From Candidatus Gottesmanbacteria bacterium (lineage in GTDB: Bacteria > Patescibacteriota > Microgenomatia > JACOXO01): a stretch of DNA of 41,590 bases. The translations under genes were made by a program, and so were the position numbers. The notes under the pieces are model-generated. The model made no database searches. It saw only the letters and a list, made by a program, of their open reading frames with translations, and had not been told where the DNA came from. This document shows positions 13,099 to 22,813 of this stretch, in pieces; position 1 is the stretch's first letter, and every line of letters starts with the position of its first letter. The stretch covers positions 1 to 41,590 of the forward strand of contig JACOXO010000020.1 of NCBI GenBank assembly GCA_016182365.1, read 5' to 3'.

Positions 13099-13545
13099 AT
13101 GAAATGTCCATTTTGTCAGAGGTTAGAAACTGAAGTAATTGAAACCCGCGACTCCGAAGATAATGCAACCACACGAAGAAGAAGAGCGTGTATTCACTGC
13201 GGCAAAAGATTTACAACCTACGAGCGGGTAGAGGTAGAACCTTTGATTGTTATTAAAAAAGATAAAAGAAGAGAACAGTTTAATCGGGAAAAATTACAAA
13301 GAGGGATACTAAAGGCAGGAGAAAAAACAACATTATCCCTTGACAGTATAAACAGCTTGGTGGATAAAGTTGAAAGAGAATTAAGGGGAGCCGATACAAG
13401 TGAGATTGAAAGTCAGAAAATAGGTAGGACGGTAGCCAGGGAGCTAAAAAAGATTGATAAACTGGCATATATTAGATTTGCAAGCGTATTTAGACAATTT
13501 GTTGATCTTGAAGATCTGGAAAAAGAATTAAAAAAAATTTCATAA
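13099..13545 (+). CDS. nrdR: Transcriptional repressor NrdR
   Basis: The 148-residue protein has an N-terminal zinc ribbon (Cys3, Cys6, Cys31, Cys34 in MKCPFCQ and CIHCGKRFTTYERV) followed by an ATP-cone domain (VIKKDKRREQFNREKLQRGILKA and onward). This is the standard NrdR architecture. It senses ATP/dATP and represses ribonucleotide reductase genes. Here it lies 12 bases upstream of the B12-dependent reductase it probably controls, and its own promoter contains NrdR-box-like sites, pointing to autoregulation. Confidence 0.95.
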   Translation: MKCPFCQRLETEVIETRDSEDNATTRRRRACIHCGKRFTTYERVEVEPLIVIKKDKRREQFNREKLQRGILKAGEKTTLSLDSINSLVDKVERELRGADTSEIESQKIGRTVARELKKIDKLAYIRFASVFRQFVDLEDLEKELKKIS

Positions 13546-13557
13546 TAAAGGAGTCAT

Positions 13558-16500
13558 ATGAAGCTTGACGGCATAAGACAAAAAGTATTTTTAGACAGAT
13601 ACTCATTAAAAGACAAAGTGGGTAATCCTTTGGAGAAGACACCTGAGGCGATGTGGAAAAGGATTGCCAAAGGTGTAGCTCAATATGAGACTGATCCTAA
13701 AAAAGCCAAAGTTTGGGAAAAGAAATTCTATATGGCAATGCAGGATTTTAAATACATCCCCGGCGGTAGAATTCTCTCTGGTGCCGGCACTGGATATAAA
13801 GTGACTTTCTATAACTGCTACGTTTTACCGTCCCCCAAAGATTCAAGAGACGGTATTTTGGATAACTTGAAAGAAATGGTTGAGATTATGGCAAGAGGCG
13901 GGGGAGTGGGTATTAACCTTTCCTCACTGCGTCCAAGAGGAGCAAGAGTTAAAAAAGTAAACGGATTCTCTTCAGGCCCTATGAACTGGGCAGAGCTTTA
14001 TTCAGTTGCTACCCATGACATTATCCAGCAGGGTGGAACCAGAAGAGGCGCTCTGATGCTTATGCTTTGGGACTGGCATCCTGATATTGAGGAATTTATT
14101 ACAGTCAAAAGAAACCTGGCAAGAATTACTGGTGCTAATCTTTCTGTTTGTGTATCTGACAAATTCATGAAAGCTGTACAGGAGAATGCTGATTGGAATT
14201 TGGTATTTCCTGATACCAATGAGAAAGAATATGATCAAAAATGGGATGGCTACCTTGCCGACTGGGTAGCACAGGGCAAGAAAGTTAAAAAATATAAAAC
14301 AGTAAAAGCAAAATATCTTTGGGATCTTAGCTGTGAAGCTGCTTGGACGTCTGCCGAACCAGGTGTAGTATTTATGGAAAGATACAACAAATGGCATTCC
14401 AATTATTATTTCAACAGAATCAACTGCGTCAATCCATGCGTTACCGGAGATACCTTAGTTTCTACCTCAAAAGGCCAAGGGAGAATGGAAGATTTATACA
14501 AAGAAGGGAAACCATTTTTATCTATCTTAGATGGAAAACCATACCTTACAACAGCTGTTAAACATACTGGGGTTAAGCAGGTATATAAGCTTAAAACCAA
14601 AGAGGGTTATTCATTAAGATTAACTTCAGATCACAAAGTATATACCCAAACAGGCATGGTCGAAGCTGGTAAATTGACTCTTGGCACAAAACTAATTCTA
14701 ACAAGAGGCGGTTCTTTTGGTACAGCTGGAACAGAGGAGGAGGGATTAGTATACGGCTGGCTTGTTGGAGACGGATCTGTGAAAAAAGACGTAGCTACAC
14801 TCTATTTTTACAATGATGAAAAAAGGGAGCTGGCTCCGTCCTATGCACAGTTTGTGCATAAAATGGTTGACGGAACTCAGATCTCTCATAGATCTTATCC
14901 AATTACTCCTCAATATGTTGAAAAAGAGGATAAAGCAGTTGTTGAATCTACAAGACTGTGGAGAATGGCAAACAAAATTGGCCTGACCCACGAAAATAAA
15001 TATCAGGTCCCAGAAATGATTTTTGCCGGATCAAAAGAAATACAAAAAGGATTTCTAAAAGGACTTTTCTCAAGCGACGGCCATGTAAGCGGAACCGTAG
15101 AGAAAGGAATAAGTGTAAGACTTACATCAGTTTCCCAAGACCTACTTGTTGGTGTACAAAGGCTTCTTTTGAATTTTGGAATAACCAGCAGAATCTATGC
15201 AAATAGAAGACAGGAAATGGAAAGACTTCTTCCTGACGGAAAAGGAGGTAGGAAGTTATACCGAACTCAAGCATATCATGATCTAGTTATTTCCAAATCA
15301 GATCTTTTGATATTTGCTAGAGAAATAAACTTCCTGCAAAAAGTAAAACAGGTTAAACTTGCAAGCCTTCTTTCTTCATATAAAGAAGGTCCATACAGGT
15401 CTTCTTTTACAGCAACTTTTGATTCTCTGGAGAAAGAAGGGATAGAGGACGTCTACGATATTACTGTTGCTGATGTTCATAGATTCTCTGCAAACGGTAT
15501 TGTAGTTTCAAACTGCGGAGAAGAGGGGCTTCCGGCTTACGGAGTATGTAATTTGGGATCTTTAAATCTTGCTGCTTTTGTCAAAGACGGCAAAATGGAT
15601 TATGAACTACTTTATGAGCACGCCAAAATAGGAACCAGATTTCAGGATAATATTATTGACGGTGATATCTACATTTTTGAAGGAATTAGAAAAACCCAGC
15701 TTGAGGGCGAAAGAAGAATCGGGCTTGGAACTATGGGTCTGGGGGATGCTTTAATTAAAATGAAAATAAGATATGGATCGCAAGAATCTTTAAAAGTAAT
15801 TGATAAAATTTACAAACTTATACGGGATGCTGCGTTTGAAGCTTCAATTGAATTGGCCCAAGAGAAAGGAGCTTTCCCTAAGTTTGAAAAAGACAAATAT
15901 CTCAAAGCCTATTTTATAAAGCAGCTTCCAGTTACTATCAAAAAAAAGATTTCCAAGTATGGAATAAGAAACTCTGTGCTTTTGATGCAGGCCCCAACCG
16001 GATCAACATCTCTAATGGCCGGAGTATCATCAGGTATTGAACCTGTTTATGAATTTACATTTATAAGACGGGACAGGTTGGGTGAACACCGACTGTACCA
16101 TCCATTATTTGATACTTGGAAAAAAGATCATCCCTCTGATCCAATTCCAGATTACTTTGTATCATCAAGTGATTTGACTCCTGAGGATCATGTAAAAGTA
16201 CAGGCAGCAATCCAGAAATATGTTGATGCCTCAATCTCAAAAACAGTCAATGCCCCAAAGACATTTACAGTTGATGATGTCAAAAAACTGTATAATTTGG
16301 CCTACAAATTAGGATGTAAGGGCGTAACCTTTATGAGAGATGGGTCGAGACCGGGAGTTTTGGAGAAAGCGCCGGAAAAACAGGAAGCCAAAGCTGTAAA
16401 CGGGGAAGTAAAAATTGATGGAATACAGATTCCTGTTAAAAAACCAAGACCAATGGTGGTGCATGGATCAACATATCAGATTGACTCACCTGTAGGAATT

Positions 16501-17016
16501 ACCTACGTTACCATAAATTCTGATCTTGATAACCAGCCATTTGAGGTGTTTATAACAGTAGGGAAAGCAGGATCAGATGTTGGAGCCATGGCTGATGCTA
16601 TAGGAAGACTAATCTCATTAAACTTAAGAATGGTATCACCACTTGCTCCAAAAGACAGGATGAAAAAGATTGCTGACCAGCTTATTGGGATTGGTGGGGC
16701 AAGATCTGTAGGATTTGGAGAAAAAAGAGTTCGCTCTTTGCCTGACGCTGTTGCTAAAATTATGGCCACACATTTTGGCTTTCATTATAAAAATGGCAAC
16801 GGTGAGATTAAACAGTCCAATGGAGTGCAGGCAGGAAATGGGCATTTAACAATAAAAGAAGCGCCGGTTAATTCCCAGCCCGTAGTTGCCCTGTCAGCCC
16901 AGAACTCTCTTCCTTATTCGAGAGAATATGACCTTTGCCCTGAATGCGGATCAGCTTCCCTTGCTTTGGAAGAAGGATGCAAAAAATGCTACTCCTGCGG
17001 CTACTCGGAGTGTTAA
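13558..17016 (+). CDS. nrdJ: Adenosylcobalamin-dependent (class II) ribonucleotide reductase with intein
   Basis: Reduces ribonucleotides to deoxyribonucleotides using adenosylcobalamin. The host protein is 793 residues once a 359-residue intein (residues 294-652) is removed. Visible parts are an N-terminal region, the NCYVLPSP strand carrying the first redox Cys, a GGGVGINLSSLRPRG loop, and the catalytic NPC-GEE loop split by the intein. Further on are PTGSTSLMAGVSSGIEP, a TSCPD domain (DSPVGITYVTINSD onward) and a C-terminal zinc ribbon with CPECG and CKKCYSCGYSEC. A clear AAAGGAG ribosome site precedes ATG 13558. The next gene supplies the cofactor. Activity depends on protein splicing. 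Confidence 0.95.
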   Translation: MKLDGIRQKVFLDRYSLKDKVGNPLEKTPEAMWKRIAKGVAQYETDPKKAKVWEKKFYMAMQDFKYIPGGRILSGAGTGYKVTFYNCYVLPSPKDSRDGILDNLKEMVEIMARGGGVGINLSSLRPRGARVKKVNGFSSGPMNWAELYSVATHDIIQQGGTRRGALMLMLWDWHPDIEEFITVKRNLARITGANLSVCVSDKFMKAVQENADWNLVFPDTNEKEYDQKWDGYLADWVAQGKKVKKYKTVKAKYLWDLSCEAAWTSAEPGVVFMERYNKWHSNYYFNRINCVNPCVTGDTLVSTSKGQGRMEDLYKEGKPFLSILDGKPYLTTAVKHTGVKQVYKLKTKEGYSLRLTSDHKVYTQTGMVEAGKLTLGTKLILTRGGSFGTAGTEEEGLVYGWLVGDGSVKKDVATLYFYNDEKRELAPSYAQFVHKMVDGTQISHRSYPITPQYVEKEDKAVVESTRLWRMANKIGLTHENKYQVPEMIFAGSKEIQKGFLKGLFSSDGHVSGTVEKGISVRLTSVSQDLLVGVQRLLLNFGITSRIYANRRQEMERLLPDGKGGRKLYRTQAYHDLVISKSDLLIFAREINFLQKVKQVKLASLLSSYKEGPYRSSFTATFDSLEKEGIEDVYDITVADVHRFSANGIVVSNCGEEGLPAYGVCNLGSLNLAAFVKDGKMDYELLYEHAKIGTRFQDNIIDGDIYIFEGIRKTQLEGERRIGLGTMGLGDALIKMKIRYGSQESLKVIDKIYKLIRDAAFEASIELAQEKGAFPKFEKDKYLKAYFIKQLPVTIKKKISKYGIRNSVLLMQAPTGSTSLMAGVSSGIEPVYEFTFIRRDRLGEHRLYHPLFDTWKKDHPSDPIPDYFVSSSDLTPEDHVKVQAAIQKYVDASISKTVNAPKTFTVDDVKKLYNLAYKLGCKGVTFMRDGSRPGVLEKAPEKQEAKAVNGEVKIDGIQIPVKKPRPMVVHGSTYQIDSPVGITYVTINSDLDNQPFEVFITVGKAGSDVGAMADAIGRLISLNLRMVSPLAPKDRMKKIADQLIGIGGARSVGFGEKRVRSLPDAVAKIMATHFGFHYKNGNGEIKQSNGVQAGNGHLTIKEAPVNSQPVVALSAQNSLPYSREYDLCPECGSASLALEEGCKKCYSCGYSEC
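14437..15513 (+). mobile_element. Intein with DOD homing endonuclease inside NrdJ
   Basis: The intein begins with Cys (CVTGDTLVSTSKG, block A) right after the extein residues NP and ends NGIVVSN before the extein Cys. Block B reads LRLTSDHKVYT with the conserved T-x-x-H. Block F/G is DVYDITVADVHRFSANGIVVSN, where the usual penultimate His is Ser. Two dodecapeptide-like motifs, LVYGWLVGDGSV and FLKGLFSSDGHV, identify a LAGLIDADG endonuclease that may still be active. The insertion point is immediately upstream of the catalytic loop Cys, a recurrent position for reductase inteins. Confidence 0.92.
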
Positions 17017-17562
17017 ATGAAAATATACACAAAAACAGGAGACAGAGGTCAGACATCCCTATACGGAGGGACAAGGGTATCCAAAAGCAGTTTGCAGATT
17101 GAAGCCTATGGTACCATTGACGAACTAAACTCCTTTATAGGACTGGCATTATCTGAAATAAAACAGGTTGATGTTGAGAAGTTTCTTTTGGCATTGCAGA
17201 CAGACCTAATGTCAATTGCCTCATATCTAGCAGGATACCGTAAAGGAAATCTGAATCTTGAGCTTAGGGTTTCTGAGATTGAGAAGGTAATTGATCAGAT
17301 GGATGTCAAACTTCCTCCCCTTAAAAACTTCATTCTTCCCACGGGAGAAAAGTTAGGCGCTTCACTTCATGTTGCCAGAAGCGTTTCAAGAAGAGCAGAA
17401 AGAGCTGTAATTAGATATTTTGAAGCTGAAACAAAACCTAATCCAAATAAAGATAAAATAATAATCTACCTCAATAGATTATCAGATTTTCTATTTGTAC
17501 TAGCTCGGTTTGCAAACCACCTTGCCTCCCACCCCGAAACCATTTGGAAGGAAATTGAATAA
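17017..17562 (+). CDS. pduO: Cob(I)alamin adenosyltransferase, PduO type
   Basis: Transfers the adenosyl group of ATP to cob(I)alamin to make adenosylcobalamin, the cofactor of the reductase encoded just upstream. The N-terminus MKIYTKTGDRGQTSLYGGTRVSK carries the ATP-binding TGDxGxT motif. The YGTIDELNSFIG segment and the RSVSRRAERAVIRY helix are the other signatures of the PduO/MMAB fold. Length (181) is normal. The ATG directly follows the nrdJ TAA, so both are co-translated. No corrinoid biosynthesis genes are present in the window, which fits salvage of imported B12. Confidence 0.95.
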   Translation: MKIYTKTGDRGQTSLYGGTRVSKSSLQIEAYGTIDELNSFIGLALSEIKQVDVEKFLLALQTDLMSIASYLAGYRKGNLNLELRVSEIEKVIDQMDVKLPPLKNFILPTGEKLGASLHVARSVSRRAERAVIRYFEAETKPNPNKDKIIIYLNRLSDFLFVLARFANHLASHPETIWKEIE

Positions 17563-17697: not shown

Positions 17698-18015
17698 ATG
17701 ACAGAACGACCAAAACCTAATAATGTAGACAAAATAGCTTATCTGAGTAATTTATATTCCAGAGTTATTTTTGGAGACCCTCGTGCATTATTAGAATTAT
17801 CCAAAATTGCTTTAGGTGGTTTTAAACCTGCACAAACAATTATTGATAGAATTGATATTGATAATAGTATTACTACAGTTACAGACACTTCGGTAATACC
17901 ACCCGTAAATAATAAAGGTGGGGGTGTGCAGCTGGGAGATTGGTCTACGAGAGATCAAGAAAGAATGCGAAATGGAGAACGTCCCCAAGATATTCCTACT
18001 CATAGAAATCTGTAA
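17698..18015 (+). CDS. Hypothetical protein, 105 residues
   Basis: A small soluble protein with an N-terminal helical half (VDKIAYLSNLYSRVIFGDPRALLELSKIALGGFKPAQTIID) and a C-terminal Gly/Asn/Arg-rich tail (NNKGGGVQLGDWSTRDQERMRNGE). TATAAT at 17683-17688 lies 9 bases before ATG 17698, so the message would be leaderless. Not recognised. It sits between the B12-dependent reductase operon and the cobalamin riboswitch, on the same strand, and ends upstream of a CCCCGATT/AATCGGGG hairpin (18066-18082). Confidence 0.5.
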   Translation: MTERPKPNNVDKIAYLSNLYSRVIFGDPRALLELSKIALGGFKPAQTIIDRIDIDNSITTVTDTSVIPPVNNKGGGVQLGDWSTRDQERMRNGERPQDIPTHRNL

Positions 18016-18105
18016 ACACCTTCTCTTGACTTTCTTCAATAAAAAGACCATATTAAAGTTGTAAACCCCGATTAAATCGGGGTAAATTAACATTAAAATA
18101 ATTTG

Positions 18106-18220
18106 TGCGATGGGCCATCCGCCATCATTACTATTATGAGGTAGGCGAGATAAGGCCAATGGGAATCCTGTGTAATTCAGGAACTGTGCCGCAGCGGTTA
18201 AAGTCCGAAGACCGATCGCA
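18106..18220 (+). promoter_or_regulatory. Cobalamin riboswitch
   Basis: The core reads GGGAATCCTGTGTAATTCAG, then GAACTGTGCCGCAGCGG, then AAGTCCGAAGACCG. That is the conserved GGGAA, CCCGC-like/B12-box and GTC-GAAG-AC order of cobalamin aptamers. TGCGAT (18106-18111) pairs with ATCGCA (18215-18220) to close the P1 helix, giving a compact aptamer of about 115 nt. It lies 96 nt upstream of an unknown gene. The hairpin just before that gene (18289-18312) supplies the expression platform. Ligand subtype (adenosyl- or methyl/aquo-cobalamin) cannot be told by eye. Confidence 0.88.
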
Positions 18221-18288
18221 TTTCCGACCTAAAGTCGAGAATTACCCGAGCAGGTTAGCTAAACATGCATTTTTTGCATGCAATTTTC

Positions 18289-18316
18289 AAACCTTCCAAT
18301 TCGGGAAGGTTTTTTT
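18289..18316 (+). promoter_or_regulatory. Riboswitch expression platform: SD-burying hairpin/terminator
   Basis: AAACCTTCC (18289-18297) pairs with GGAAGGTTT (18304-18312), followed by a run of T to 18316 and then ATG 18317. The 3' arm contains GGAAGG, which is the Shine-Dalgarno for that ATG at 7-base spacing. The same hairpin can thus terminate transcription and hide the ribosome site. A further hairpin (GCATGCA-like arms, about 18265-18282) sits between it and the aptamer. Confidence 0.7.
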
Positions 18317-19600
18317 ATGGAAACAGCACTATATTTACCACCAGATGTATTGGAAGTCAGGAATCCAGACGTAAACAATCTTTTCTTGCTACCTAAAGAA
18401 AGCATTCCTTATGACGCGCATTTAATTGAAAGAATTGCAAATGCAGGATTTGACATTGACGCAGAATATAGAAGGAAAGATATCCTAAATAGGGAGTTTG
18501 GAGAAAAAGGCAATAGAATATTCGTAGCTGCAACAACTGATGAAATTTTAGAATATGCTTTTGAATACAGCAGAAAAGATCCGGTAAGACGTCCCAGACC
18601 TTACTTATTAAAAGAAGGCAGGCTTTTCTCTCCGTCTTACCAAGAATATTTAGACGTTTTTACAAAACCTTTTGAAAGGGAAGGAGCGACCTATGAGGGT
18701 GCACTTAAAGTCCAGGCTTTACTAAAAGATGCACCAGATGACGCATATGTTATATGGAGTAGTCCGCCTGGTTGGATTGCAGATGGATATCAACCATATA
18801 TGTATGGCTGGACTCATTTTTTTCGGAAAGACGGTGTTAACCAGGATGGAGACAGCAATGTTGTATATGTTTCCGCCAGGACCAAGCTTAATGCACGACA
18901 GCTAGGAGAATGGTCTAACTCATATTTAAGCCCAAACGATAAACTTGATCTTCAGTCTGCTGATTTTGACACAAGGGAGGGGATTAAGAGGGTAGTTTCA
19001 ACTCCTGTATTAGTCAACCCAGAACAGTTTAATATTCAAAAACTTTCCGATTTTACCAGACCAATCAATGATGGAATTAAAAAATATAATGAGGTTATAT
19101 ATTCAGACAAAGAAGGAATTTCCTACACACTTGCAGATCTTGGGGAAAGCCTTGATAAAGCAGAACAAACATCAAAAACCGAACGTGATATTTTGCAGCC
19201 TTTGATTGAATATTTTGAAGCACAGCTTTTAAATGCCCAGACTGAGGAGGATGCAAAAATGATAATGGCTAATTATTTCATTAAAGCAAACCAAATTTTA
19301 CGGGATTATAGAGATTTAAATTCAATACCTTTTTCAATATCTGATAATAATAATTTTCTTGCGGTAAATCCGTCACGTGTCTCTACTTTGCTTTCAACGC
19401 TTCAGGAAGTAGGAGGGTGTGGTTCTGTTCAAAACGCCGCAACATTCAGTTCAGTAAAAGAAAAAAAGCAAAAATTTACTTGCCCAGAGTGCGGAAAGGA
19501 TTCTTATGGACCTGTTGGAAATAAATGTCCTCAATGCGGAATAACATTTGAGGAATATGTTAAGAAGGCTAAGAAAACAGGTAAAAAGGTGTGCGCGTAA
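18317..19600 (+). CDS. B12-riboswitch-controlled zinc-ribbon protein of unknown function
   Basis: I do not recognise the 427-residue protein. It is soluble, without a signal peptide. Residues 1-380 form a mixed alpha/beta body, including YVIWSSPPGWIADGYQPYMYGWTHFFRK and NVVYVSARTKLNARQLGEW. These are aromatic-rich stretches with possible catalytic His/Asp/Arg. A helical section (about 260-340) follows. The C-terminus is a zinc ribbon: FTCPECGKDSYGPVGNKCPQCG. Start ATG 18317 is chosen because it has a perfectly spaced GGAAGG site in the riboswitch hairpin. Control by cobalamin, next to the B12-dependent reductase operon, suggests a role in B12 supply, B12-sparing metabolism or nucleotide metabolism, but this is inference only. 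Confidence 0.8.
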   Translation: METALYLPPDVLEVRNPDVNNLFLLPKESIPYDAHLIERIANAGFDIDAEYRRKDILNREFGEKGNRIFVAATTDEILEYAFEYSRKDPVRRPRPYLLKEGRLFSPSYQEYLDVFTKPFEREGATYEGALKVQALLKDAPDDAYVIWSSPPGWIADGYQPYMYGWTHFFRKDGVNQDGDSNVVYVSARTKLNARQLGEWSNSYLSPNDKLDLQSADFDTREGIKRVVSTPVLVNPEQFNIQKLSDFTRPINDGIKKYNEVIYSDKEGISYTLADLGESLDKAEQTSKTERDILQPLIEYFEAQLLNAQTEEDAKMIMANYFIKANQILRDYRDLNSIPFSISDNNNFLAVNPSRVSTLLSTLQEVGGCGSVQNAATFSSVKEKKQKFTCPECGKDSYGPVGNKCPQCGITFEEYVKKAKKTGKKVCA

Positions 19601-19618: not shown

Positions 19619-19639
19619 TCACCTAAATAGCAGGTGATT
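19619..19639 (+). promoter_or_regulatory. Hairpin covering the ribosome site of the next gene
   Basis: ATCACCT (19619-19625) pairs perfectly with AGGTGAT (19632-19638) around an AAATAGC loop. The AGGTG arm is the likely Shine-Dalgarno for ATG 19646. A TATAAT element (about 19609-19614) just upstream may start a transcript here. This would make translation of the following gene conditional on melting the hairpin. Confidence 0.45.
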
Positions 19640-19645
19640 CTGCCT

Positions 19646-20056
19646 ATGGATGACCAAACGAAAAAAAATAATAATCAGCCAGTAACTCAAGTTGGGACAG
19701 CACATAAAGAGAATGTACCAACAAGACAACCAGAAACATATTATTCTGAGAAAACAACTACACCTGAGATTTCAATAGAGTTAAAAGATGTTGGAGTAAA
19801 AGCAAGGCAGGAAGAGATAAGGGTGGATGTTGAGCTTCAGAATATGGGAGTGAATGCAACAGGAACATCAACGCCTATGCCTGTTAATCCAACAATTGTC
19901 TTGCCGATACCAGATAGTGAGGTGGAAAAAGGGCTGCACCAGAAAATATTTTTAAGTATTAGATGGCTTGCAGAATGGTGTATGTTTCAACTAAAAAGGG
20001 CTCATCTTACTCTTAAAGTAATACATGGGAGAGTAAGAAGAATACCATATAGATAA
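19646..20056 (+). CDS. Hypothetical protein beside the VirD4-like ATPase
   Basis: A 136-residue protein with a long polar, Asn/Thr/Pro-rich N-terminal region that looks disordered. It contains a near-repeat (ISIELKDVGVKARQEEIRVDVELQNMGVNA). A C-terminal amphipathic or membrane-associated stretch (KIFLSIRWLAEWCMFQLKRAHLTLKVIHGRVRRIPYR) follows. ATG 19646 is preferred over GTG 19634, which lies inside the ribosome-site hairpin. It ends 5 bases before the ATPase gene and is probably its partner, perhaps a membrane adaptor. No family recognised. Confidence 0.6.
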   Translation: MDDQTKKNNNQPVTQVGTAHKENVPTRQPETYYSEKTTTPEISIELKDVGVKARQEEIRVDVELQNMGVNATGTSTPMPVNPTIVLPIPDSEVEKGLHQKIFLSIRWLAEWCMFQLKRAHLTLKVIHGRVRRIPYR

Positions 20057-20061
20057 TAACT

Positions 20062-22407
20062 ATGGATAATGAGTTTTATAGTCAAATAATGTTTTTTGTA
20101 GAAACAGGACTGATCCTGTTTGCAGCAGCAACCGTAATAGGAATTGGAACTTATGTGAGTTGGTTCTTTTTTGTAAGAATCTGGAGAAGCAGAGACAGGG
20201 AAAAACATTCGCTGCAATACGCCCTTTTGCAGGTTGCAGTGCCTAGGGATAACGAAGTTAAAATTGATGCTTCAGAACAGTTTATAGCCTCACTTGCAAG
20301 CCTGAGAAAAGGCGGCTTTGGATCAAATCTTAAACCCCAGGACCATTTTTCCTTTGAAATTGTAGCAACACCAGGGGATATAAGATTTTATGTCGCAACA
20401 CCTAATAGACTTAGAGATTTAATTGAAAAGCAAATTCATGGAGCATATCCTGGCGCTGACATTAAAGAGGTGGATGAATACAATATTTTTACTGATCGGG
20501 GTAAAGTAGCATTTGCTGCCTTAAAACTAAAATCCAAAGACTATAACCCAATTAAGGTTTACAGGGATCTTCCAACAGATCCGTTATCTTCAATCACCTC
20601 AGCTCTTGCCAAAATGGGAGAAGGTGAGGGAGCAGCAATCCAGATTATTTTATCTCCATCGGATGGAAAATGGAAAGAAGCTGGAAAATCATATATCTCA
20701 ACAACCAAAAAACGGGAAGCAAACCCTGAAGAGGCAAAATTTAATGTTGAAGCAAAAAGTTTGGAGCAGATTGAAAATAAATGCTCAAGATCAGGTTTTG
20801 ATACAACTGTCAGGATTGTAGTTTCAGCTGGAACGCAGGAAATTGCCAAAATGCACCTTGAAAACATAAAAACTGCTTTCTCACAATATTCATCTGAGCT
20901 TAACAGCTTTACTTCAGTCAAATATTTTTTCAAACACGGATTTATGATTGACTTTATTTACCGTTATTTTCCTATGTTTGACTGGCCGTATAAGCAGACA
21001 TCAACACTAACCGCTGAGGAGATAGCAACCATATTTCATTTCCCAAATAAATCTGTTGAAACGCCGCACATTTTCTGGCTGAATGCCAAACGGGCTCCGG
21101 CTCCTGCTACCATGCCTCATTCAGGATTATTTTTGGGTAAAAGTACTTATAGAGGCGTATCCAGGCCTGTATATTTAAGCCAGGATGATAGAAGAAGGCA
21201 CGTGTATGTAATTGGAAAAACGGGGGTAGGTAAATCCGAACTTTTAAAAAGTATGATTTTACAGGATATAAGAAACGGGGAGGGTGTTTGTTTTATCGAT
21301 CCTCATGATTCAATTGACAAGCTTCTACCACTTATTCCACCTGAAAGGGCTGAGGATGTTATTTACTTTAATCCTTCAGATAATGAGCGTCCTATGGGTC
21401 TTAATATGCTGGAAGCCAATACCGAGGATCAGAAACATTATGTTGTCACTTCAATTATCGGCCTTATGTACAAACTGTACGATCCGATGAAAACCGGTAT
21501 TATCGGCCCCAGATTTGAGCATGCAGTAAGAAATGCCATGTTAACAGTCATGGCTGATGAAGGATCAACTTTTATTGAAGTTGTAAGGGCTTTAACTGAT
21601 GCCAACTTTGTCCAGCAGCTTCTTCCCAAAGTCCAGGATCCCATAATCAGAAGATATTGGACCGATCAGATAGCTCAGACTTCTGATTTCCACAAATCTG
21701 AGGTTTTGGACTACATCGTTTCCAAGTTCGGAAGATTTGTCACAAACCGTACCATGAGAAATATTATTGGCCAATCTAAAAGCTCATTTGATTTTAGAAA
21801 AGTCATGGATGAGGGGAAAATTCTTCTTGTAGATTTAGCTAAAGGAAAAATAGGTGAGGAGAATTCAAATTTCCTAGGTCTTGTACTTGTTCCTAAAATC
21901 TTAGTTGCTGCTATGAGCAGAACCGATACACCTGAGGAAAAAAGGCGGGATTTTTACCTATATGTTGATGAGTTCCAGAACTTTGCAACCCCTGATTTTG
22001 CCCAAATATTATCTGAGGCCAGAAAGTACAGACTTAATTTAACAGTTGCCAATCAGTTTATCGGGCAAATGGAGGAGGAGGTTAAAAACGCAATCTTTGG
22101 AAACGTTGGTTCACTTATTTCATTTAGGGTGGGAGTGACTGATGCCAATTACTTACAGCATGAATATCAGCCAACCTTTAATGAAGCAGATCTTATTAAT
22201 ATCGAAAGATATAACGCCTATATGAAAACTATAATTAATAACGAACCCGTACCTCCATTTAGTGTTGATATGACCAGAGATATATCAGCCGAAAAAAGAG
22301 CAGAAAATCCACGAGTTGCCGAGGCCATAAAACGCCTATCATCCCTCAAGTACGGAAAGTCTAGAGATATTATTGAGGCAGAAATTCAACAGCGCGCGAA
22401 GTTATAA
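20062..22407 (+). CDS. VirD4/TraG-like membrane ATPase
   Basis: A 781-residue protein with an N-terminal membrane helix (about residues 8-38), a long N-terminal region (40-370) and a RecA-like motor domain. The motor has Walker A VIGKTGVGKSELLKS near residue 385, FIDPHDSIDKLLPLIPPE just after, Walker B DFYLYVDEFQNF near residue 633 and a motif III-like LTVANQFIGQM. This is the DUF87/TraG-VirD4 coupling-protein group. Such ATPases pump DNA or protein through type IV secretion channels. No VirB4, VirB6 or pilin genes accompany it here. Patescibacteria often carry such isolated conjugation-type ATPases, possibly for DNA handling at the envelope. Confidence 0.88.
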   Translation: MDNEFYSQIMFFVETGLILFAAATVIGIGTYVSWFFFVRIWRSRDREKHSLQYALLQVAVPRDNEVKIDASEQFIASLASLRKGGFGSNLKPQDHFSFEIVATPGDIRFYVATPNRLRDLIEKQIHGAYPGADIKEVDEYNIFTDRGKVAFAALKLKSKDYNPIKVYRDLPTDPLSSITSALAKMGEGEGAAIQIILSPSDGKWKEAGKSYISTTKKREANPEEAKFNVEAKSLEQIENKCSRSGFDTTVRIVVSAGTQEIAKMHLENIKTAFSQYSSELNSFTSVKYFFKHGFMIDFIYRYFPMFDWPYKQTSTLTAEEIATIFHFPNKSVETPHIFWLNAKRAPAPATMPHSGLFLGKSTYRGVSRPVYLSQDDRRRHVYVIGKTGVGKSELLKSMILQDIRNGEGVCFIDPHDSIDKLLPLIPPERAEDVIYFNPSDNERPMGLNMLEANTEDQKHYVVTSIIGLMYKLYDPMKTGIIGPRFEHAVRNAMLTVMADEGSTFIEVVRALTDANFVQQLLPKVQDPIIRRYWTDQIAQTSDFHKSEVLDYIVSKFGRFVTNRTMRNIIGQSKSSFDFRKVMDEGKILLVDLAKGKIGEENSNFLGLVLVPKILVAAMSRTDTPEEKRRDFYLYVDEFQNFATPDFAQILSEARKYRLNLTVANQFIGQMEEEVKNAIFGNVGSLISFRVGVTDANYLQHEYQPTFNEADLINIERYNAYMKTIINNEPVPPFSVDMTRDISAEKRAENPRVAEAIKRLSSLKYGKSRDIIEAEIQQRAKL

Positions 22408-22423: not shown

Positions 22424-22450
22424 AAGAGAGGAAGCGAGAAAGTGAAAAGT

Positions 22451-22813
22451 ATGAAGTTTACTGATTTGGAAGTATGGAAAGAAGCACATAAACTTACACT
22501 TTTTATTTACTCAATAACATCACAATTTCCCAAGTCAGAATTATATGGTTTAACTATGCAGCTTAGAAGAGCTTCGGTTTCAGTTGAGTCTTGTATTGCT
22601 GAAGGATTTAGCCGTTTTCATTACAAGGATCGTTTAAATTTCTACTATGATGCGCGAGGTTCTGTAAGCGAGGTACAAAGCCAATTAATTGACTCGAAAG
22701 ATCTAAAATTTATCAATTTAGACCAATTTAACCAAGCTTATAAACTAGCAGAAATGGTAAGTATTATTCTTAGTGGATTAATAAGATCTACTGTAAATTT
22801 GTCAAAAAAGTGA
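22451..22813 (+). CDS. S23/four-helix-bundle protein (IVS family)
   Basis: A 120-residue all-helical protein with the family signature FTDLEVWKEAHKLTLFIY near the N-terminus, LYGLTMQLRRASVSVESCIAEGF in the middle and a helical C-terminus. The family was first found inside 23S rRNA intervening sequences and also occurs scattered in genomes; its function is unknown. The ring-forming structure suggests nucleic acid or protein binding. ATG 22451 fits homologs better than GTG 22442. The gene sits between two 15-bp direct repeats inside what looks like the terminator region of the upstream ATPase gene, which suggests insertion as a mobile unit. Confidence 0.85.
   Translation: MKFTDLEVWKEAHKLTLFIYSITSQFPKSELYGLTMQLRRASVSVESCIAEGFSRFHYKDRLNFYYDARGSVSEVQSQLIDSKDLKFINLDQFNQAYKLAEMVSIILSGLIRSTVNLSKK

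Follow-up and report, generated by a model that had tools for sequence, protein, structure and literature searches.

A cobalamin riboswitch is linked to an undescribed zinc-ribbon protein family across one class of Patescibacteria

The window analyzed here (the whole stretch of 41,590 nucleotides of Candidatus Gottesmanbacteria DNA) carries a cobalamin riboswitch in front of a gene for a 427-residue zinc-ribbon protein. A survey of 374 genomes of one bacterial class (Levybacteria included) showed that B12 riboswitches in this class most often stand in front of this undescribed protein family, which is tied to the riboswitch across 12 families of the class. Control of the gene by B12 is well supported by computation, and we regard it as nearly certain. 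We propose that the protein is a B12-repressed factor for B12 acquisition or assimilation that feeds the B12-dependent ribonucleotide reductase NrdJ, a role to which we give an even chance. Ultrasmall Patescibacteria are thought to rely on their neighbors for cofactors. The papers searched contain no account of how they get B12 for their B12-dependent ribonucleotide reductase, and a full-text search of open-licence papers found none that deals with this protein family or with the cobalamin riboswitches of Patescibacteria. The family may be the class's way to obtain or handle B12 for DNA synthesis. The conserved residues and the concrete regulatory model given below can be tested experimentally, a second, transcobalamin-like set of riboswitch-controlled genes is indicated in relatives, and how these bacteria get B12 becomes a testable question.

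The riboswitch aptamer consists of the following elements.

18105–18221, + strand: cobalamin riboswitch aptamer (RF01689, RF00174, P4/P6 covariation in 29 loci, P1 from sequence)
18105–18111/18215–18221, + strand: P1 (from sequence)
18112–18157, + strand: P2 arm
18166–18170/18178–18182, + strand: P4 (covariation, 29 loci)
18187–18191, + strand: L5, UGCCG
18195–18197/18205–18207, + strand: P6 (covariation, 29 loci)

The first-pass annotation described a compact B12 aptamer with a closed P1, and its reading depended on there being an Rfam cobalamin hit. Two Rfam models match above their gathering scores: RF01689 (AdoCbl-II) at 18142–18222 on the + strand, with 39.7 bits against 36.5, and RF00174 (the general Cobalamin model) at 18122–18234, with 37.4 bits against 31.5. 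This is the sole match to either model in the 1.04-Mb draft genome. P1 is closed by seven pairs that can be read from the sequence, GTGCGAT (18105–18111) with ATCGCAT (18215–18221). In an alignment of 29 riboswitch RNAs from the same class, P4 and P6 covary, with up to 21 of the 29 sequences altered on both sides of P4 and 16 altered at the middle pair of P6. With a score above the gathering threshold and core helices that covary in orthologous loci, the RNA at 18142–18222 is a real AdoCbl-II riboswitch, for which binding of cobalamin is predicted. It is hardly conceivable that it is a chance or degenerate match: the RF01689 threshold is exceeded by only 3 bits, but the RNA passes two models, has a covarying core and a conserved P13, and scores at other loci of the class reach 57.5 bits.

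The RNA resembles AdoCbl-II (class II) cobalamin riboswitches (RF01689, clan CL00101) in its core sequence, in the covariation of P4 and P6, in the L5 sequence UGCCG, in having a P13 with a kissing loop, and in its bistable expression platform. It differs from them in that the riboswitches of this class have a conserved L13, CG[A/U]GCA, with a variable bulge; in that the Shine–Dalgarno sequence lies either within P13 or within a terminator arm joined to the start codon by a U-tract; and in that its target gene has no earlier description in the papers searched.

The expression platform follows directly.

18244–18255, + strand: P13 hairpin ACC-CGAGCA-GGU, kissing-loop partner of L5 (loop and stem conserved across riboswitch loci)
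18245–18305, + strand: alternative antiterminator, CCCGAG (18245–18250) with UUCGGG (18300–18305) and AGGUU (18252–18256) with AACCU (18290–18294)
18289–18312, + strand: terminator-like hairpin with the Shine–Dalgarno sequence GGGAAGG (18303–18309) in its 3′ arm, followed by U7 and the ATG at 18317

The leader 3′ of the aptamer is more structured than its shuffles (z −3.2). A hairpin with a CG[A/U]GCA loop is found directly 3′ of the aptamer in the riboswitches of the class, and its stem is at least 3 bp long in 66 of the 72 loci that have the loop. The stems have 13 different sequences (UCC/GGA, CCC/GGG, CUU/AAG, UCU/AGA and others), which constitutes covariation, and of 85 loci 51 have the CCCGAGCAGG-type motif, against none of the shuffles. 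L13 (CGAGCA) can pair with L5 (UGCCG) if one bulge is allowed, which fits the L5–L13 kissing loop described for corrinoid riboswitches (PMC10653944). In many loci the P13 hairpin itself bears the Shine–Dalgarno sequence and the start codon comes immediately after it. The terminator-like design of the window, which is the hairpin that the first-pass annotation had recognized as holding the ribosome site, recurs at L011, L039, L040, L051, L057 and L088.

The antiterminator is mutually exclusive with both P13 and the terminator, and the two states are predicted by Vienna folding to be within 0.6 kcal/mol of each other (−26.1 kcal/mol for P13 plus terminator, −25.5 kcal/mol for the antiterminator). 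This geometry resembles that of the metE corrinoid riboswitch of P. megaterium, a repressing switch in which P13 competes with an antiterminator, and P13 with its kissing loop permits the terminator (PMC10653944). In contrast to that riboswitch, the antiterminator of the window uses both arms of P13, and its terminator arm additionally bears the Shine–Dalgarno sequence. The computed structures thus show both marks of a repressing corrinoid riboswitch, namely the L5–L13 kissing loop and the competition between P13 and the antiterminator. Given P13, the mutually exclusive antiterminator and terminator, and the Shine–Dalgarno sequence in the terminator arm, we predict that B12 represses the gene, which should then be off in vivo when B12 is present. 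When B12 is plentiful, L5 of the bound riboswitch would kiss L13 and hold P13 together; the terminator-like hairpin would then form, ending transcription, hiding the Shine–Dalgarno sequence, or both. Without B12, both arms of P13 would pair with the 5′ arm and loop of the terminator hairpin, and the gene would be read.

The controlled gene is the following.

18317–19600, + strand: riboswitch-controlled protein, 427 residues (76-sequence alignment; the longest ORF, from 18278, has 440 residues)

The body of the protein contains E83, R121, S149-P-P-G152 and Y158, followed by G-C368-G, a C-terminal zinc ribbon (C389/C392/C404/C407) and C426. In the alignment of 76 sequences, S149 of the SPPG motif and the four zinc cysteines are present in all 76, E83 and C368 (in GSCG) in 75, R121 in 66 and C426 in 65. 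The window protein is only about 20% identical to its relatives. It matches nothing in Pfam at E ≤ 0.01 or in NCBIfam at E ≤ 0.001. Outside the zinc tail, no match of any of the 76 members to Pfam, NCBIfam or PHROGs exceeds the curated cut-off; the matches obtained are weak, either of zinc-ribbon type or scattered. A PDB profile search returned no family, only zinc-ribbon tails, coiled coils and other noise. A tblastn search of phages with the protein and a scan of viral contigs for the family both gave no match.

AlphaFold gave a model of the 373-residue Levybacteria homologue L119 (pLDDT 74), with an alpha-beta-beta-alpha-alpha-beta-beta-beta domain in which SPPG comes right after the third strand, followed by helices and the ribbon. 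The model of the window protein was poor (pLDDT 44), probably because only 8 sequences were given as input. Foldseek found no match at E ≤ 0.001, either in the PDB for both models or among viral structures for the better one. The first-pass description of a 427-residue protein of no recognized family therefore holds after sequence, profile and fold searches. No transmembrane or signal segment is evident on reading the sequence, and the window protein is therefore unlikely to be the transporter itself.

The family has several types of zinc tail, and even close homologues have exchanged one type for another. The bodies of L020 and L009 (311 residues) are 49% identical, yet their tails differ; L052 and L073 have 65% of the tail in common but little of the body. 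What identifies the family is the conserved body with its SPPG and GSCG motifs, whereas the zinc ribbon at the C-terminus varies and is swapped as a module. The tail is a four-cysteine ribbon, like generic zinc ribbons such as Zn_ribbon_8 and L37Ae/eL43, but the Pfam matches to these are below the curated cut-offs and are confined to the tail. It is also similar to the Cys-rich C-terminal zinc domain of NrdJ (PMC5704485), sharing CxxC…CxxC and a terminal cysteine; however, this likeness is weak (E 1e-4 to 8 in the held-out search described below) and limited to the tail, the 370-residue body being unrelated.

We then consider the occurrence of the family in the class. A search of genome contigs with the single protein found no relative, because the family is too divergent. 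The initial search of 94 genomes found four true relatives, all adjoining a cobalamin riboswitch and an adenosyltransferase gene (ATR), with an nrdJ fragment in the same stretch. L007, a zinc-ribbon methyltransferase, was judged not to be a relative. A profile built from five sequences found relatives in at least 91 of the 374 genomes. In 70 of the 73 genomes that have both the protein and a listed riboswitch, the riboswitch lies no more than 3 kb upstream on the same strand, and these 70 span 12 families of the class. A search with the Levybacteria alignment gave 7 named loci of Levybacteria type, all 7 with a cobalamin riboswitch match nearby upstream, some of them below the Rfam gathering score. 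An iterated HMM drifted onto the zinc tails of NrdJ (the assignments of L095, L085 and L069 come from it and are weaker), and the claim of linkage rests instead on a held-out HMM. This HMM was trained on 70 proteins and then applied to 1,079 ORFs of 40 riboswitch loci outside the training set, 39 of them from genomes in which the first profile had found no protein. It gave 22 strong matches (E < 1e-7), all 22 downstream of a riboswitch and none elsewhere among the 1,079 ORFs; the weaker matches elsewhere are mostly NrdJ zinc tails (E 1e-4 to 8). Relatives that lacked riboswitches and lived in genomes unconnected with B12 would have told against a B12-linked system, as proposed in the first-pass annotation; the relatives found are riboswitch-adjacent, in genomes with a B12-dependent ribonucleotide reductase, and the proposal is strengthened.

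The genes upstream of the riboswitch in the window are as follows.

13099–13545, + strand: NrdR, repressor of ribonucleotide reductase genes (TIGR00244, 173 bits)
13558–17016, + strand: NrdJ, class II B12-dependent ribonucleotide reductase with a LAGLIDADG intein and a Cys-rich zinc tail at its C-terminus (TIGR02504, 551 bits; intein models)
17017–17562, + strand: PduO-type cob(I)alamin adenosyltransferase, ATR (TIGR00636, 179 bits; between riboswitch and family in 8 other loci)

The score of NrdJ is well clear of the TIGR02504 cut-off of 400 bits, and its intein occupies about residues 295–651. The position of the protein just after the reductase and the adenosyltransferase is thus as first described, with a single orphan ORF of 105 residues and no family match (17698–18015) between ATR and the riboswitch. 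Across the examined loci, counted at a permissive cut-off with the iterated profile, the order is riboswitch–ATR–protein in 8, ATR–riboswitch–protein in 15, and riboswitch–protein in 47, where the fetched stretch has no ATR on the same strand. In the 8 loci where one riboswitch precedes ATR and then the protein gene, the two genes are probably co-transcribed. As for co-occurrence, the association of riboswitch and protein is clear; linkage to nrdJ is common yet dispensable, since 47 of 70 riboswitch–protein loci have no same-strand adenosyltransferase gene in the fetched stretch.

NrdJ (TIGR02504) is found in 335 of the 374 genomes. In one exceptional family (f9: G142, G343, G263, G075, G303, G112, G008) the usual NrdJ is replaced by an RTPR-like class II reductase scoring below the family cut-off, and ATR is present in 5 of the 6 f9 genomes tested. 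The riboswitch therefore seems to go with B12-dependent reductases as a group. In the genome of the window, NrdJ is the only recognized B12 enzyme. This 92% complete draft, in which absences are provisional, contains no DUF4430 (PF14478), no DUF6580 (PF20221) and no PF02310 B12-binding domain. Searches with phmmer using E. coli queries, over 1.07 Mb of overlapping stretches (nearly the whole draft), found no BtuC or BtuF homologue and only generic ATPase-type matches for BtuD. CobT, CobS and CobU of E. coli likewise found nothing, while the positive control PheT was found; the earlier claim that B12 synthesis is missing stands for these three proteins, the only ones to which the search extended.

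Where the family is absent, the genes downstream of the riboswitch include DUF4430, a prenyltransferase/squalene-cyclase-type toroid and the membrane family DUF6580. Elsewhere in the class the same slot holds either ATR or this set. The toroid is the fold of the transcobalamin alpha domain. Of 187 genomes tested, 17 have DUF6580 and 19 have DUF4430 in the 5 kb downstream of the riboswitch. DUF4430 is the C-terminal domain of animal transcobalamins (PMC4350170). The DUF4430/DUF6580 set has the look of a transcobalamin-type system by which bacteria would capture B12, complete with a membrane carrier. It stands under a cobalamin riboswitch in L083, L089, L097, L082 and L117, with the alpha-toroid protein in L082 and L097. 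The DUF4430, alpha-toroid and DUF6580 proteins share with our family the regulatory slot, the class and sometimes a place beside ATR; they differ in being unrelated in sequence and in having signal or membrane segments, which the window protein lacks on reading. Of the riboswitch-bearing genomes, 4 have both the family and the DUF4430/DUF6580 set, 34 only the family, 30 only the set, and in 45 neither was detected. The two tend to exclude each other, an effect that is modest (Fisher p 0.001, kinship ignored).

We note some further occupants of the slot. Riboswitch-controlled proteins of 560–760 residues, without a Pfam family in those tested, occur in L087, L098, L111, L116, L110 and L117; in those of L087, L098 and L116 a hydrophobic segment lies close to the C-terminus, and the sequence stops near GIIF/NIIF. 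In L117 (in others, judged by distance) such a long gene of no recognized family precedes DUF4430 and DUF6580. Profile comparison (hhalign E 0.002, probability 12–15%) is suggestive only of these six long proteins being distant relatives. A 98.7-bit cobalamin riboswitch stands before a MetE-like gene, identified by eye, at 1021–3577 of L118 (G255 C12), a 4-kb contig; this is unusual for the class and possibly represents contamination.

The biochemical role of the protein is assigned by association, as neither homologues of known function nor fold matches were found. The proposed role in B12 assimilation draws on the Rfam matches, the adjacency in 70 of 73 genomes, the 22 of 22 held-out matches, the riboswitch matches near all 7 Levybacteria-type loci, the repressing geometry of the platform, the shared control with ATR in some loci, the slot shared with DUF4430, toroid and DUF6580, the tendency of the family and that set to exclude each other, and the absence of DUF6580, DUF4430, BtuC, BtuF and PF02310 from the genome of the window. 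A role under B12 scarcity is suggested most strongly by the probable co-transcription with ATR under one riboswitch and by the use of the slot by a transcobalamin-like set. Against it, some genomes hold both the family and the capture set, and the anticorrelation with that set is modest among related genomes. Solo loci far from nrdJ and ATR indicate that no operon partner is needed. On our proposal, scarcity of B12 would turn on production of the protein, a fast-evolving factor in which no signal or membrane segment is evident. It would act in acquisition or intracellular handling of B12 (capture, reduction or hand-over to the adenosyltransferase), and the B12 so supplied would keep NrdJ working. 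We suggest tentatively, and consider it rather doubtful, that the family is a new kind of protein for acquiring or processing corrinoids and that, in a large share of the class, it takes the place of transcobalamin-like capture and of BtuFCD import, the invariant GSCG cysteine and the exchangeable zinc tail acting on the corrinoid or its carrier.

The main rival to B12 assimilation, which we consider unlikely, is a role in sparing or supporting NrdJ when B12 runs short, as opposed to bringing in B12; the protein might, for instance, be a stabilizer or a thiol/redox partner that acts through its Cys-rich zinc tail. A CxxC…CxxC tail ends only three ORFs of more than 150 residues in the genome (NrdJ, this protein and an ORF with an Fpg/MutM-like tail), NrdJ tails are the main other ORFs found, weakly, by the held-out profile, and the gene adjoins nrdJ in many loci. 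Moreover, the Cys-rich tail of NrdJ relays electrons, and its native reductant is something other than Trx/Grx (PMC5704485). However, the tail types are freely swapped between close homologues, some of the long candidate relatives have no zinc tail, most loci are unlinked to nrdJ, and the protein has no CxxC thioredoxin-like active site outside the tail.

It is distinctly unlikely that the protein is a regulator, with a PAS/GAF/roadblock-like sensing domain and a zinc ribbon, that alters expression of other genes at low B12. The topology of the Levybacteria model (pLDDT 74) and sub-threshold Foldseek matches, which include PAS, GAF, LuxR and IclR ligand-binding domains, are consistent with such a protein, but none of these matches reaches E ≤ 0.001, no helix-turn-helix was recognized, and riboswitch targets are seldom regulators. 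A further reading is that B12 starvation induces a factor that is secreted or directed at a host, the neighboring VirD4/TraD-like ATPase exporting it and the variable zinc tail serving as its sorting signal. This would account for the fast divergence, the swapped C-terminal modules, and the small protein and ATPase that follow in many loci, but is very improbable: the ATPase (in L089 also the small gene) likewise follows the DUF4430/DUF6580 set (L083, L089), which makes ancestral synteny the apparent cause of their presence, neither occurs in solo loci, and in this genome the tail is otherwise found only on NrdJ and the Fpg-like ORF.

In the window, a 140-residue orphan and the TraD/VirD4-like ATPase occupy 19634–22407, an arrangement kept 3′ of the nrdJ–ATR region in many genomes of the class. 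The ATPase was rejected as a functional partner, since it also follows unrelated riboswitch genes. Beyond it, 22442–22813 encodes a four-helix-bundle protein of the 23S rRNA intervening-sequence type, near a tRNA-Ile(UAU) gene.
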